NCBI GenBank assembly: GCA_002067705.1
Contig: MVRL01000181.1
Coordinates: 1-47,149 of the forward strand
DNA length: 47,149 nucleotides
From: Methanosaeta sp. PtaU1.Bin112
GTDB lineage: Archaea; Halobacteriota; Methanosarcinia; Methanotrichales; Methanotrichaceae
Direction: 5' to 3'
Shown: in pieces, positions 16,719 through 45,651 of the stretch
Position numbering within the stretch: position 1 is the first letter of the stretch
Layout of the letters: every line of letters begins with the position of its first letter
The notes under the pieces: model-generated
Told to the model about the DNA's origin: nothing
The model's database searches: none
Seen by the model: the letters and a program-made list of their open reading frames with translations, nothing else
Program-made: the position numbers and the translations under genes

Positions 16719-17095
16719 TTCAGTCTACTTCCCTGCTTCCGAATGTTCTCCAATCAAGCTAATGCACTCTGGGGTTATAGGTGTGAGCAGCGCAGGGAGC
16801 CTTTGCGGTTTTGAAAGATCCCCTCACCCCGGACCATGCTTGACAGAGAATCCTAAAGAGCTTTTGTCTTGACTGCTAAGGATCAACCCTAAAGCAGTTT
16901 CTGGGCATCTTCATGCATGCTGGCGAGCTTCTTGGTGATGGGGTGCTGCGGCCCGCTCTCCTGCTCTGTCAACATACGGGACGAACTTGATAAGTAAGAA
17001 GAAGATACTAATCTCGGTAGTTAAGAATTATTGCCTCAATCCACAGGTATTAGTGCTTTCATGTGACCACAGTGGTTTTGTAGGACAAAAGGCTT
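16719..17095. other. Leader region of tRNA-Cys/cysS
   Basis: About 375 bases. On the minus strand a 28-codon frame (16889-16975, starting MLTEQESGPQHPITKKLAS) looks protein-like but is too short to accept. AT-rich DNA around 16985-17040 should contain the promoter of the tRNA-cysS unit. The sulfur-island palindrome is not present here. Confidence 0.4.
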
Positions 17096-17166
17096 GCCGG
17101 GGTGACTGACCGGTTAAGTGCGCGGCTGCAGACCGCGAGAATTGGGTTCGACTCCCAACCCCGGCC
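17096..17166 (+). tRNA. tRNA-Cys (GCA), with C73
   Basis: Cloverleaf by eye: acceptor GCCGGGG/CCCCGGC, D stem ACT/AGT, anticodon stem CGCGG/CCGCG around loop CTGCAGA (anticodon GCA), variable AGAA, T stem TTGGG/CCCAA with TTCGACT. All stems are perfectly paired. The base after the acceptor stem (discriminator 73) is C at 17166, whereas tRNA-Cys normally has U73, a main identity base for CysRS. The cysS ATG begins at 17169, two bases later, so the two are almost certainly in one transcript. No CCA is encoded. Confidence 0.93.
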
Positions 17167-17168
17167 TC

Positions 17169-18617
17169 ATGAAGATATACAGCACCATTTCCCGAGAGAA
17201 AGAGAGATTAGAAACCATTCACAGCGGACGTATTAATCTATTCGTCTGCGGTCCCACGGTATATGACGATTCTCACATCGGCCATGCCAGGACCTATGTT
17301 GCTTTTGATGTGGTGGCCCGTTATCTTAAATACAGAGGCTACAGCGTCTTTTATCTACAGAATATCACCGATGTTGACGACAAGATCATCAACCGTGCCG
17401 CTGAGAGTGGCGTTTCGCCCCGCTATTTAGCAAGGAAATTTGAACAGAGGTATCTGGAAGATATGCAGGCTCTGGGCGTCACCAATGTAAACTACTACGC
17501 AAGGGCTACAGAGCACATTCCGGAGATCATCTCCCAGATAGAGAGGCTGATGGAAAAGGGATTTGCCTATGAAACCGATACAGGCGTCTACTTCGATGAA
17601 TCACTATTCCCTGATTTTGGAAAGCTGTCTCATCAAAGCGCAGAGAAACTGAAAAAGCACAGAATCGAGCCGGATCCGACCAAAAGGAACAGCGGGGACT
17701 TTGCTCTGTGGAAGAAGAGGCAGGAAGGAGAAGGCAGCAGCGGCCACGGCAATCAAGATGACCAGTTTGATGAAGAGGTAGTCTGGGACTCGCCTTGGGG
17801 AAAGGGGAGGCCTGGCTGGCATATCGAAGATACAGCTATTACTGAAACCTATTTCGGGCCGCAGTACGATATCCATGGCGGAGCCATGGATCTCATATTC
17901 CCCCATCATGAGGCTGAAATTGCTCAAATGGAGGCGGCATCCGGGAAAAAGCCATTGGTCAAGTACTGGATGCATACTGGCTTTCTTAATGTCGGGGGAG
18001 AGAAGATGTCCAAGTCCCTGGGCAACTTCACCACCATCCGGGATATGCTAAAGGAATATGATCCACAGGCCTTCCGGCTCTTTGTTCTGCTCTCTCATTA
18101 TAGCAGTGCCATAGACTTCTCACCTGATGCCCTAAAGCAGGCACATAGAAGCCTTGAGAGGCTGCAGAAGGCTGCTCGAATCATCACCGAGAGCATTGAA
18201 AATGAAGACGATGAAGACCGCGATCTTGGGACAATAGAGGATGCCGATCCGTTTGTGGCCGCTGCCAGAGCGCAGTTCCTGGAGCATATGGACAATGACT
18301 TCAATACTCCCTATGCCCTGCGCACCCTATTTGATTTGATAAGGGATATCAACCGGCGCATAAATGACGGGAAGATATCGCAAAAGGGCTTGAAAGAAGC
18401 AAGAGAGCTTCTCCTTCAGGCCGGAGAGGTTCTGGGATTGAGTTTCTTTTCTCCTGTAGTGATGGCTGGGGAGAAGGCAGAGGTCGATATTGCGACGAAG
18501 CTCGCAGAGACGCTGATCTGGACCAGACAGAGGCTGCGAGAGAAGAAGGACTGGCAGATCGCCGATGAGATCCGAAATCGGATGAAGGAGTTGGGTATTG
18601 CAGTTGAGGATTCCTAA
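17169..18617 (+). CDS. cysS: Cysteinyl-tRNA synthetase
   Basis: 482 aa class I synthetase charging tRNA-Cys with cysteine. CGPTVYD then HIGH (SHIGHARTY, about residues 36-39), zinc-ligand region with HH (FPHHEAEIAQ), and KMSKS (GEKMSKSLGN, about 278-282). The start at 17169 gives the family-typical MKIYSTISREKE; the frame also runs back through the tRNA, but that part cannot be protein. No ribosome site is possible other than within the tRNA: release of the tRNA 3' end would leave a leaderless mRNA starting TC-AUG. The window also holds pscS, so both routes to Cys-tRNA exist. Confidence 0.97.
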   Translation: MKIYSTISREKERLETIHSGRINLFVCGPTVYDDSHIGHARTYVAFDVVARYLKYRGYSVFYLQNITDVDDKIINRAAESGVSPRYLARKFEQRYLEDMQALGVTNVNYYARATEHIPEIISQIERLMEKGFAYETDTGVYFDESLFPDFGKLSHQSAEKLKKHRIEPDPTKRNSGDFALWKKRQEGEGSSGHGNQDDQFDEEVVWDSPWGKGRPGWHIEDTAITETYFGPQYDIHGGAMDLIFPHHEAEIAQMEAASGKKPLVKYWMHTGFLNVGGEKMSKSLGNFTTIRDMLKEYDPQAFRLFVLLSHYSSAIDFSPDALKQAHRSLERLQKAARIITESIENEDDEDRDLGTIEDADPFVAAARAQFLEHMDNDFNTPYALRTLFDLIRDINRRINDGKISQKGLKEARELLLQAGEVLGLSFFSPVVMAGEKAEVDIATKLAETLIWTRQRLREKKDWQIADEIRNRMKELGIAVEDS

Positions 18618-43113: not shown

Positions 43114-44490
43114 TTAATTAATGCGCAATTTATACTTGCTCGCTATATCCAGGAACGACGCTGCCGTATACTTTATCTGCTCCCAGCTTTGGCCGTAGGT
43201 GTTCAGCTTCCATGTGCGAGTAGCTCCGGCAAATTCGCCAATAATCCCCCTATCTTTAAGCTCGTCACTAAAGAAAAAGCCTCTTCTCTTATGCGTCTTC
43301 GCAACCACATCAAAGCTCCCTGTTGTATCTACTTTGGAAAGAGTATGCCTACGAGGCCATTCGCTCAAGACCTTCGATCCCTGAATCCGCAAGAACTGAT
43401 TCAGGAAGTAGTTGGATTTCTTAACCTCTTCCTCCCAGTTAGCAGTCCGCTCTTTTATCCGCGGAAAAGATGCGATCATCGAAAGCAATGTGGCACCCAT
43501 AAGGGTGCAGCCCATGTTTTCGACCTCTTTCACTCCGAACTTCCTTCCAGTCAGGTCGCCAACCATCTGAGTTGTTCTGAAGAGTTTTGGTGCCCATTCA
43601 TCGGTTGTGGCAAGAACGCCAGAGGGGGCAACTGATGCCATGCTCTTGTGGCCTGATCCAACAATGAAATCCGCACCGATCTTTCCACCATCTACAGGCA
43701 TCACGCCCACCGTGTAAGCTCCGTTGTAAAGGAATGGAATTCCATAGTCTTTTGCCACTTTTCCAATTCCGTATACATCATGTTCGTTGGCGAACTGGTA
43801 ATCGAAGTGATCAATCATGATGAGCTTAGGAAGCCTACCAGTCTCGCTCTTCACATCTTCGATCTTCTGGGCCGTGGCATCTGCGGTGACGACATTTCTT
43901 TCATTTAATGGAACCTCTCTCACCACCCCTCCGGCAACCTCCACTGCCAGGAACTCTGTATAGTGGGCTAGAGACGAGACAATCACACTGTCGCCTTTCT
44001 CCACTAAGGATTGGGTCACTGCCTGAAAGCCCCGACGAGCTCCAGGAACTACGCGCGCTTGGTCCATATTCAGGAACTTTGCCAGGTCCTGGTGGAACTC
44101 TTCGATTGGCGGTCTGGTGATCTTATCTAGCCGGAAGGGCTTTCGGCAATAATCGCATGTAGAGTAGCCATCCCCATAGGATATGATTGCCTTGCGGGCC
44201 TCTGGAGTGAGCCTGCCTGCAGCCTGGATAGGATGGATGTTGATGAACTCTTCTTCCCTGGTCCTGGGATCGAGCTTTCCTACTCTGTTGCAGGCGGGTT
44301 TGCCTTCACCATTCTCTAAGTCGGAGATGATGCCTTTAATCCTAGCAATGGTGCTCGAAAACTGTTCCTTCTGTTTCTCATCGAAACCTACAGGTAGAGA
44401 TTGCCGAAAGATCTCTCGGATATCCTCCAGCGCAAAAAGTGCCTCATATGTTTTCTGAATCTGTAGTGTTTTTTTAGATTTGTTCACCAT
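43114..44490 (-). CDS. pscS: O-phosphoseryl-tRNA:Cys-tRNA synthase (SepCysS) with N-terminal extension
   Basis: 458 aa; PLP enzyme turning Sep-tRNA-Cys into Cys-tRNA-Cys with a sulfur donor. PLP lysine in GSGHKSMASVAPSG (Lys282). The conserved Cys pair CDYC (112/115) forms the persulfide/Fe-S site of the family. INIHPIQAAGRLTPEAR is the usual start of the catalytic part, so the first 80 or so residues are extra, helical and charged. SepRS is not in the window. With cysS both Cys-tRNA routes are present. A palindrome TTGCATGCAA lies upstream near 44535-44544. Confidence 0.95.
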   Translation of the reverse strand: MVNKSKKTLQIQKTYEALFALEDIREIFRQSLPVGFDEKQKEQFSSTIARIKGIISDLENGEGKPACNRVGKLDPRTREEEFINIHPIQAAGRLTPEARKAIISYGDGYSTCDYCRKPFRLDKITRPPIEEFHQDLAKFLNMDQARVVPGARRGFQAVTQSLVEKGDSVIVSSLAHYTEFLAVEVAGGVVREVPLNERNVVTADATAQKIEDVKSETGRLPKLIMIDHFDYQFANEHDVYGIGKVAKDYGIPFLYNGAYTVGVMPVDGGKIGADFIVGSGHKSMASVAPSGVLATTDEWAPKLFRTTQMVGDLTGRKFGVKEVENMGCTLMGATLLSMIASFPRIKERTANWEEEVKKSNYFLNQFLRIQGSKVLSEWPRRHTLSKVDTTGSFDVVAKTHKRRGFFFSDELKDRGIIGEFAGATRTWKLNTYGQSWEQIKYTAASFLDIASKYKLRIN

Positions 44491-44620: not shown

Positions 44621-45562
44621 TTAGATCTTGACATCCAGCATTCTCTCAATCGCTTTTTTCGCCCGAAGAGCGATATCCTCTGGTACTGTCACCCGCGGCT
44701 GAAGGATCTGCAGCGCCCGTAAGACCTTCGTAAGGTCGGTCTTCTTCATATTCTTGCAGATAGCATTCTTACTAAGCGGATAGAATTGCTTCTCTGGATT
44801 CTCTTTCTTCAGCCGGTAGACCATGCCTGCCTCAGTTCCAATGATAAATTCCCTGGCAGCACTGGCCTTTGCATGCCGGCTCATGCCAGATGTGCTGCAG
44901 ACGAAATCGGCCAGATCGATGACATCAGGACGACACTCGGGATGTACCAGCACTTCTGCACTGGGATGCTCGGCTCGGGCAGCCAGTACCTCCTGAGCAG
45001 TGAAACGATCATGCACGTAGCAGTAGCCGTCCCAGGGGATTATCGTTTTATCAGTATGGCGAGCTATATAGGCTGCCAAATTTCGATCAGGGACGAAGAT
45101 AATCTGTTTCTCGGACAGAGAGTTTGCCACCTGCAATCCATTGGCAGAGGTGCAACAGATATCGCTCTCCGCTTTTATCTCTGCAGTTGAATTGACATAG
45201 CAAACCACTGCTGCCTCGGGATACAGTCTCTTAAGATCGCGAAGCTGATCGGCAGTGATCATGTGAGCCATCGGGCACCAGGCACTCTTCTCCGGAAGTA
45301 TCACTTTTTTTTGGGGAGAGAGAATGGCAGCAGTCTCCGCCATAAAGTCCACACCACAAAAAATAATAACCTCCGTATCAAGGCGGGATGCCACTCGAGA
45401 GAGCTCAAGGGAGTCACCCACGAAGTCTGCTATATCCTGTACTTCAGGGATCTGGTAATTATGAGCCAGAATAGTCGCGTGGTGCTTATTTTTTAAAGCT
45501 AGAATCTCTCTTGAGATCTCAGTTAGGTTGTCTTTCTGCGAAGTCTTCTCGGATTCGGTCAT
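44621..45562 (-). CDS. nadA: Quinolinate synthase
   Basis: 313 aa; condenses iminoaspartate with DHAP to quinolinate for NAD, using an oxygen-sensitive [4Fe-4S] cluster. Expected Cys positions: VVCYVNS, VHPECRPDV, NAICKNMKK. ILAHNYQIPEVQDIADFVGDSLELS is the family signature. ATG 45562 with GGAGAT upstream is the start; the frame runs back through tRNA-Cys, which is not protein. It follows the tRNA by 17 bases, so it shares the operator G promoter. nadB is absent here. Confidence 0.95.
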   Translation of the reverse strand: MTESEKTSQKDNLTEISREILALKNKHHATILAHNYQIPEVQDIADFVGDSLELSRVASRLDTEVIIFCGVDFMAETAAILSPQKKVILPEKSAWCPMAHMITADQLRDLKRLYPEAAVVCYVNSTAEIKAESDICCTSANGLQVANSLSEKQIIFVPDRNLAAYIARHTDKTIIPWDGYCYVHDRFTAQEVLAARAEHPSAEVLVHPECRPDVIDLADFVCSTSGMSRHAKASAAREFIIGTEAGMVYRLKKENPEKQFYPLSKNAICKNMKKTDLTKVLRALQILQPRVTVPEDIALRAKKAIERMLDVKI

Positions 45563-45579
45563 TTTCTTGAGATCTCCAA

Positions 45580-45651
45580 AGCCAAGGTCCGGATTCGAAC
45601 CGGAGTGGTAATGCTCTGCAGGCATTTGCGTAGCCGCTCCGCCACCTTGGC
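45580..45651 (-). tRNA. tRNA-Cys (GCA), with U73
   Basis: Acceptor GCCAAGG/CCTTGGC, D stem GCG/CGC, anticodon stem AATGC/GCATT with loop CTGCAGA (GCA), T stem TCCGG/CCGGA with TTCGAAT. Discriminator T at 45580, as normal for tRNA-Cys. Leads the nadA transcript under operator G. Differs widely from the tRNA-Cys at 17096. Confidence 0.95.

Follow-up and report, generated by a model that had tools for sequence, protein, structure and literature searches.

The close packing of tRNA-Cys and cysS in Methanosaeta sp. PtaU1.Bin112 raises the question of how the cysS start codon becomes available for translation. We analyzed a window of 47,149 nucleotides (contig MVRL01000181.1) that carries this locus. 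That tRNA-Cys ends 2 nt before the cysS start codon, as the original prediction had it (tRNA at 17096-17166, ATG at 17169), is confirmed by ARAGORN, Rfam and the sequence. The 71-nt tRNA (17096..17166, + strand), with a GCA anticodon and an intact cloverleaf in the fold, matched RF00005 with 53.4 bits against a cut-off of 29. Its acceptor stem GCCGGGG/CCCCGGC pairs 17096-17102 with 17159-17165, so that 17166 (+) is position 73; this discriminator is C instead of the usual U, as in all linked relatives of the clade. A 2-nt spacer, TC (17167..17168, +), follows, with a predicted RNase Z cleavage site between 17166 and 17167, and the cysS ATG occupies 17169-17171. The intact cysS gene (17169..18617, +), encoding a cysteinyl-tRNA synthetase (CysRS) of 482 aa, scored 490.7 bits with TIGR00435 in a full-length match (cut-off, 340). 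The claim that a family-typical CysRS N terminus begins at this ATG also holds, as the alignment with relatives begins at residue 1; the in-frame upstream alternative start falls within tRNA-Cys. Among the 44 tRNAs of the genome, tRNA-Cys is the sole case in which an open reading frame of at least 60 codons starts 0 to 7 nt downstream. The Rfam scan of the window returned only two tRNA matches and no T-box or other aminoacyl-tRNA synthetase leader family, and a T-box or known leader RNA for cysS was rejected on this basis.

The locus has the anatomy of tRNA punctuation, i.e., a tRNA 3′ end only 2 nt from a start codon without a Shine-Dalgarno (SD) sequence. In agreement with the earlier claim that no ribosome site could exist for cysS except inside the tRNA, the SD duplex of cysS was calculated at just -1.7 kcal/mol, compared to about -5 to -12.5 kcal/mol for many other genes of the window. 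Upstream of the tRNA, a conserved promoter-like block, TTGCCTCAATCCACAGGTATTAGTG (17031..17055, +), ends in a weak TATA-like sequence, TATTAGTG, which stands some 40 nt ahead of the tRNA. The block is unique in the window, with 0 occurrences expected in shuffles, and its 25 nt (TTGCCKCWAYCCNCARGTATTWGTG) are kept in Methanothrix relatives, upstream of the tRNA at a start-to-start distance of 52 to 65 nt; clear TATA-like sequences lie at the equivalent position in L083, L179 and L084. The block combines strong conservation with a poor TATA box and may include an activator site. With a promoter profile trained on the 44 upstream regions of the genome's own tRNAs, the best score inside tRNA-Cys was 0.2, the 95th percentile of background, compared to a median of 7.4 for the own tRNA promoters; by this profile, an internal promoter is unsupported. 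The upstream region of tRNA-Cys in the window also scores weakly against the same profile. The lack of a promoter-like site inside the tRNA, together with the conserved upstream block and TATA-like sequences, suggests that transcription most likely reaches cysS by way of the tRNA.

RNase Z is encoded in the genome (358 bits). CCA inhibits RNase Z; every intact junction has T at position 74, and therefore positions 74 to 76 never read CCA, with T after a tRNA being normal in this genome. That RNase Z can generate the 5′ terminus of an RNA lying downstream has been reported in Nanoarchaeum (PMC3491384) and suggested in Thermococcus (PMC4247193). Since the mRNAs of methanogens are generally described as carrying 5′ untranslated regions and not as leaderless (PMC3600222), a leaderless cysS mRNA would be unusual. 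The simplest way to free the cysS ATG would be cleavage of the transcript where the tRNA ends.

The original prediction offered conservation of the 2-nt spacing in related genomes as a check, and the spacing is indeed conserved. A close cysS is found in 15 of the 50 family genomes, and 13 of these 15 cysS genomes have a spacer of exactly 2 nt, either TC or TT. The same exact junction is present in a Methanophagales metagenome-assembled genome (MAG; L083/L178), whose CysRS is about 61% identical, and in a fen MAG (L075/G080), giving a total of 15 genomes across Methanothrix/Methanotrichaceae and these two MAGs. CysRS and junction of one Methanothrix sp. MAG (L074) are identical to those of the window. 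G001 has one truncated copy with 5 nt, while its other copy (L008), with Ns in the tRNA and a spacing of 1 nt, was left out of the junction count because that spacing lies at the N-run. A separate lineage, G074 (L179), has 3 nt, TTT. When phylum genomes were searched for the pattern of tRNA-Cys plus 2 nt plus ATG, 3 of 393 matched, compared to 0 for the reversed control pattern; a cysS match was found in 79 of 138 sampled phylum genomes of at least 90% completeness. In the CysRS tree, the 2-nt rows form one clade (100/94) that adjoins Methanobacteriaceae, with G074 outside both. The tRNA itself shows a double change, G7-C66 to A7-U66, in L006/L009 that preserves pairing. Over its roughly 55 sites, the leader upstream of the tRNA has changed in length only a handful of times, and conservation of the spacing is not significant against this indel level; since a 2-nt spacer has few indel sites, the spacing is weak statistics and was rejected as proof by itself. 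The sequences compared are mostly from MAGs. The Methanothrix-like tRNA-cysS module of the fen MAG, which is assigned to another family, may reflect transfer or bin contamination. The same junction was also seen in front of broken cysS copies (L167/L087 and L169); cysS copies that are frameshifted or N-terminally deleted with the junction intact were noted as well, as were tRNA pseudogenes (L013/L087, L010/L162, L157, L171 and L172).

A tRNA-Cys just upstream of cysS is common in other archaea, where the two are 11 to 103 nt apart, mostly with an SD sequence. Genomes of the same class have A73 and 21 to 52 nt, mostly with SD motifs, and L182 has G73 and 22 nt; Thermoplasmata have A73 and 12 to 13 nt with GGTGAT, Bathyarchaeota have U73 and 15 nt with GAGGTG, Methanobacteriaceae have C73 and 58 and 103 nt, and a further two genomes from the Methanophagales family have U73 and 11 nt without an SD motif (position 73 of L182 and L187-193 was reread with U8 required). 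Leaders of at least 12 nt in these other archaea mostly carry SD motifs. The short-spaced C73 form is special because linked tRNA-Cys elsewhere has longer leaders. The window holds an internal control, a second tRNA-Cys(GCA) with the canonical U73 (45580..45651, - strand; ARAGORN and Rfam), which lies 17 nt before nadA with GGAGAT in between.

The changed discriminator is accompanied by changes in the enzyme; neither C73 nor this co-variation was part of the original prediction. In an alignment scan for columns fixed in the C73 group, E144 (codon at 17598..17600, +) and G176 (codon at 17694..17696, +) were present in 16 of 16 C73-linked CysRS proteins and in 0 of the 41 others examined. The co-variation of C73 with E144 amounts to only three independent contrasts, all concordant (sign test, p 0.25). 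In the family, the C73 tRNA is present in the same genomes as cysS, with one exception, G047. The two other tRNA-Cys genes of the genome carry U73, and the genome encodes SepRS (747.5 bits) and SepCysS (43114..44490, -; TIGR02539, 401.5 bits; NF006810, 620 bits), its partner in the indirect cysteine pathway. Both CysRS and SepRS use U73 as an identity element, and SepCysS recognizes it as well (PMC8762117). Because E144 and G176 track C73 strictly, tRNA-Cys(C73) and CysRS appear to form a private pair that coexists with the resident SepRS/SepCysS/U73 system. We propose E144 and G176 as candidates for discriminator recognition, reading C73; a plausible contact is acceptance of the N4 amino group of C73 by the glutamate.

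The exception, Methanosaeta UBA114 (G047; L014/L084), bears on what the junction may be kept for. Its leader before cysS (L084, 4919-5003) aligns as a decayed tRNA-Cys in which the acceptor stem and T arm are kept: 29 of 32 letters remain in these parts, compared to 23 of 39 in the D, anticodon and variable parts, which also carry 10 inserted bases (Fisher p 0.003), whereas intact relatives keep 30 to 32 of 32 and 37 to 39 of 39. Pairing persists at six positions of the acceptor stem and at five of the T stem, although the z-score of the whole fold is only -0.5 and the six acceptor pairs could partly be due to chance. The junction TC-ATG is retained. The UBA114 CysRS has V144/A176 in place of E144/G176, and the three other tRNA-Cys genes of that genome have U73. 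The acceptor-T helix is the part recognized by RNase Z. In this one MAG, tRNA function appears to have been lost while the acceptor-T helix remains, as RNase Z-dependent mRNA maturation predicts. Misassembly or a single replacement was considered; it is less likely because the promoter block, both acceptor strands, the T arm and the junction are in order and the interior can be aligned as that of a tRNA that has decayed and gained 10 bases by insertion, in what is a single MAG.

From the observed anatomy, conservation, co-occurrence and gene presence, we infer a model of cotranscription, cleavage, leaderless translation and orthogonality. A promoter upstream of the tRNA would drive one transcription unit of tRNA-Cys(C73) and cysS; RNase P would free the 5′ end of the folded tRNA, and RNase Z would cut after C73, leaving a 5′-monophosphate UC-AUG end on a leaderless cysS mRNA that would be translated from its 5′ end. 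A cut transcript would thus yield a mature tRNA and a translatable mRNA for its own synthetase, while in an uncut one the cysS start codon would lie against the folded tRNA and be poorly accessible. With C73, the tRNA is expected to be used poorly by SepRS and SepCysS, and the pair would be private. Release of a UC-AUG cysS mRNA by RNase Z had been part of the original prediction; it stands as the most economical account of the spacing, the lack of an SD sequence, the upstream promoter-like block and the RNase Z gene, with the cut and leaderless translation themselves predicted from sequence. Taken as a whole, this model is the best one available, and we consider it reasonably probable. A stronger version, which we put forward tentatively, would make the tRNA 3′-processing site an obligatory mRNA maturation signal that links CysRS output to maturation of the private tRNA, with the UBA114 tRNA now a minihelix kept solely as that signal.

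Other explanations of the junction deserve consideration. Neutral compaction would make the 2-nt spacing a result of tight packing without function, cysS being translated inefficiently from unprocessed RNA. The few indel sites, which make conservation of the spacing weak evidence, fit with this, as do the broken cysS copies that share the junction; but the junction persists in about 15 genomes with no ribosome site arising, most relatives in which the gap is longer possess SD sites, and L084 selectively retains the acceptor and T arm, so we find this explanation unlikely. It is a little less probable still that cysS has its own promoter within the tRNA gene, with RNA polymerase initiating at the ATG or immediately ahead of it and tRNA processing uninvolved. 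Directly initiated leaderless mRNAs do occur in archaea, with a share of about 14% in Thermococcus kodakarensis (PMC4247193); yet tRNA function dictates the sequence 25 to 30 nt ahead of the ATG, and the profile gave the low internal score described above (0.2 versus a median of 7.4).

An equally improbable alternative is that the attached tRNA acts as the regulator, CysRS binding the uncut leader and blocking processing or ribosome access in a feedback like that of the thrS tRNA-mimic operator. The leader is the cognate tRNA of the encoded enzyme, and the start codon adjoins the acceptor end, where CysRS acts; moreover, repression of selB by a folded tRNA-Sec has been proposed (PMC8124441). 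However, mimic-specific features are missing, the RNA being a genuine tRNA in all relatives but one, and that one, L084, has kept the junction but lost both the anticodon arm and the enzyme residues specific for C73. CysRS feedback on attached tRNA would be compatible with the RNase Z model and is possible as an extra layer of it.

Parts of the RNase Z model have counterparts in known systems. In tRNA punctuation of animal mitochondria (Ojala et al. 1981, as cited in PMC8280776), a tRNA likewise abuts an open reading frame, and here, too, tRNA excision would free a nearly leaderless mRNA without an SD sequence; the present case differs in concerning one gene of a free-living archaeon, the open reading frame encoding the synthetase that charges that tRNA, with processing predicted from sequence. 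As suggested for sR44 of T. kodakarensis (PMC4247193), the RNA that follows the tRNA would owe its 5′ end to RNase Z cleavage at the tRNA 3′ end; it is a small RNA there and a protein-coding mRNA here. tRNA-Sec nested in selB (Mukai 2021, PMC8124441) also has its gene joined to that of the partner protein; remnant tRNAs were found there, and an effect of tRNA processing on expression was proposed. However, tRNA-Sec lies inside the selB open reading frame, where processing would destroy the mRNA, whereas tRNA-Cys precedes cysS and processing would create a 5′ end. Methanogen tRNA-Cys/CysRS pairs without U73, as relayed from Perona 2018 in PMC8762117, include C73 in Methanobacterium, G73 in Methanospirillum/Methanoregula and A73 in Methanolobus/Methanocella. 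The Methanobacterium case, with changes in the acceptor region of CysRS, means that the principle of a C73 tRNA with an altered CysRS is already known, and it shares with ours the suspected orthogonality to SepRS. What goes beyond these accounts is C73 in Methanothrix/Methanophagales, E144/G176 and the 2-nt junction, although Perona 2018 may already note the linkage.

If the RNase Z model is true, mitochondria-like tRNA punctuation would occur in a free-living archaeon of a group described as mostly leadered, and the messenger made by the tRNA cut would encode the synthetase of that same tRNA. The locus also offers a naturally occurring tRNA/synthetase pair in which the discriminator base is altered and two residues of the enzyme co-vary strictly with it. 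This C73 pair would be useful for studying the coexistence of two cysteine-charging systems and for building orthogonal pairs. In pylT-pylS, private tRNA and synthetase genes also lie side by side, with a longer spacing and their own leader, unlike tRNA-Cys/cysS.

Elsewhere in the window, 44621-45651 (-) holds the linkage of tRNA-Cys(U73) and nadA. As a general pattern, this adjacency was rejected, since it is conserved only in the near-identical G037 and the tRNA alone matches in other genomes. The region 22845-45651 forms a sulfur/cysteine gene island with MetX carrying C-terminal CBS domains, MetY, two NifS-like desulfurases, CysK, a CysE-like protein, SepCysS and tRNA-Cys.
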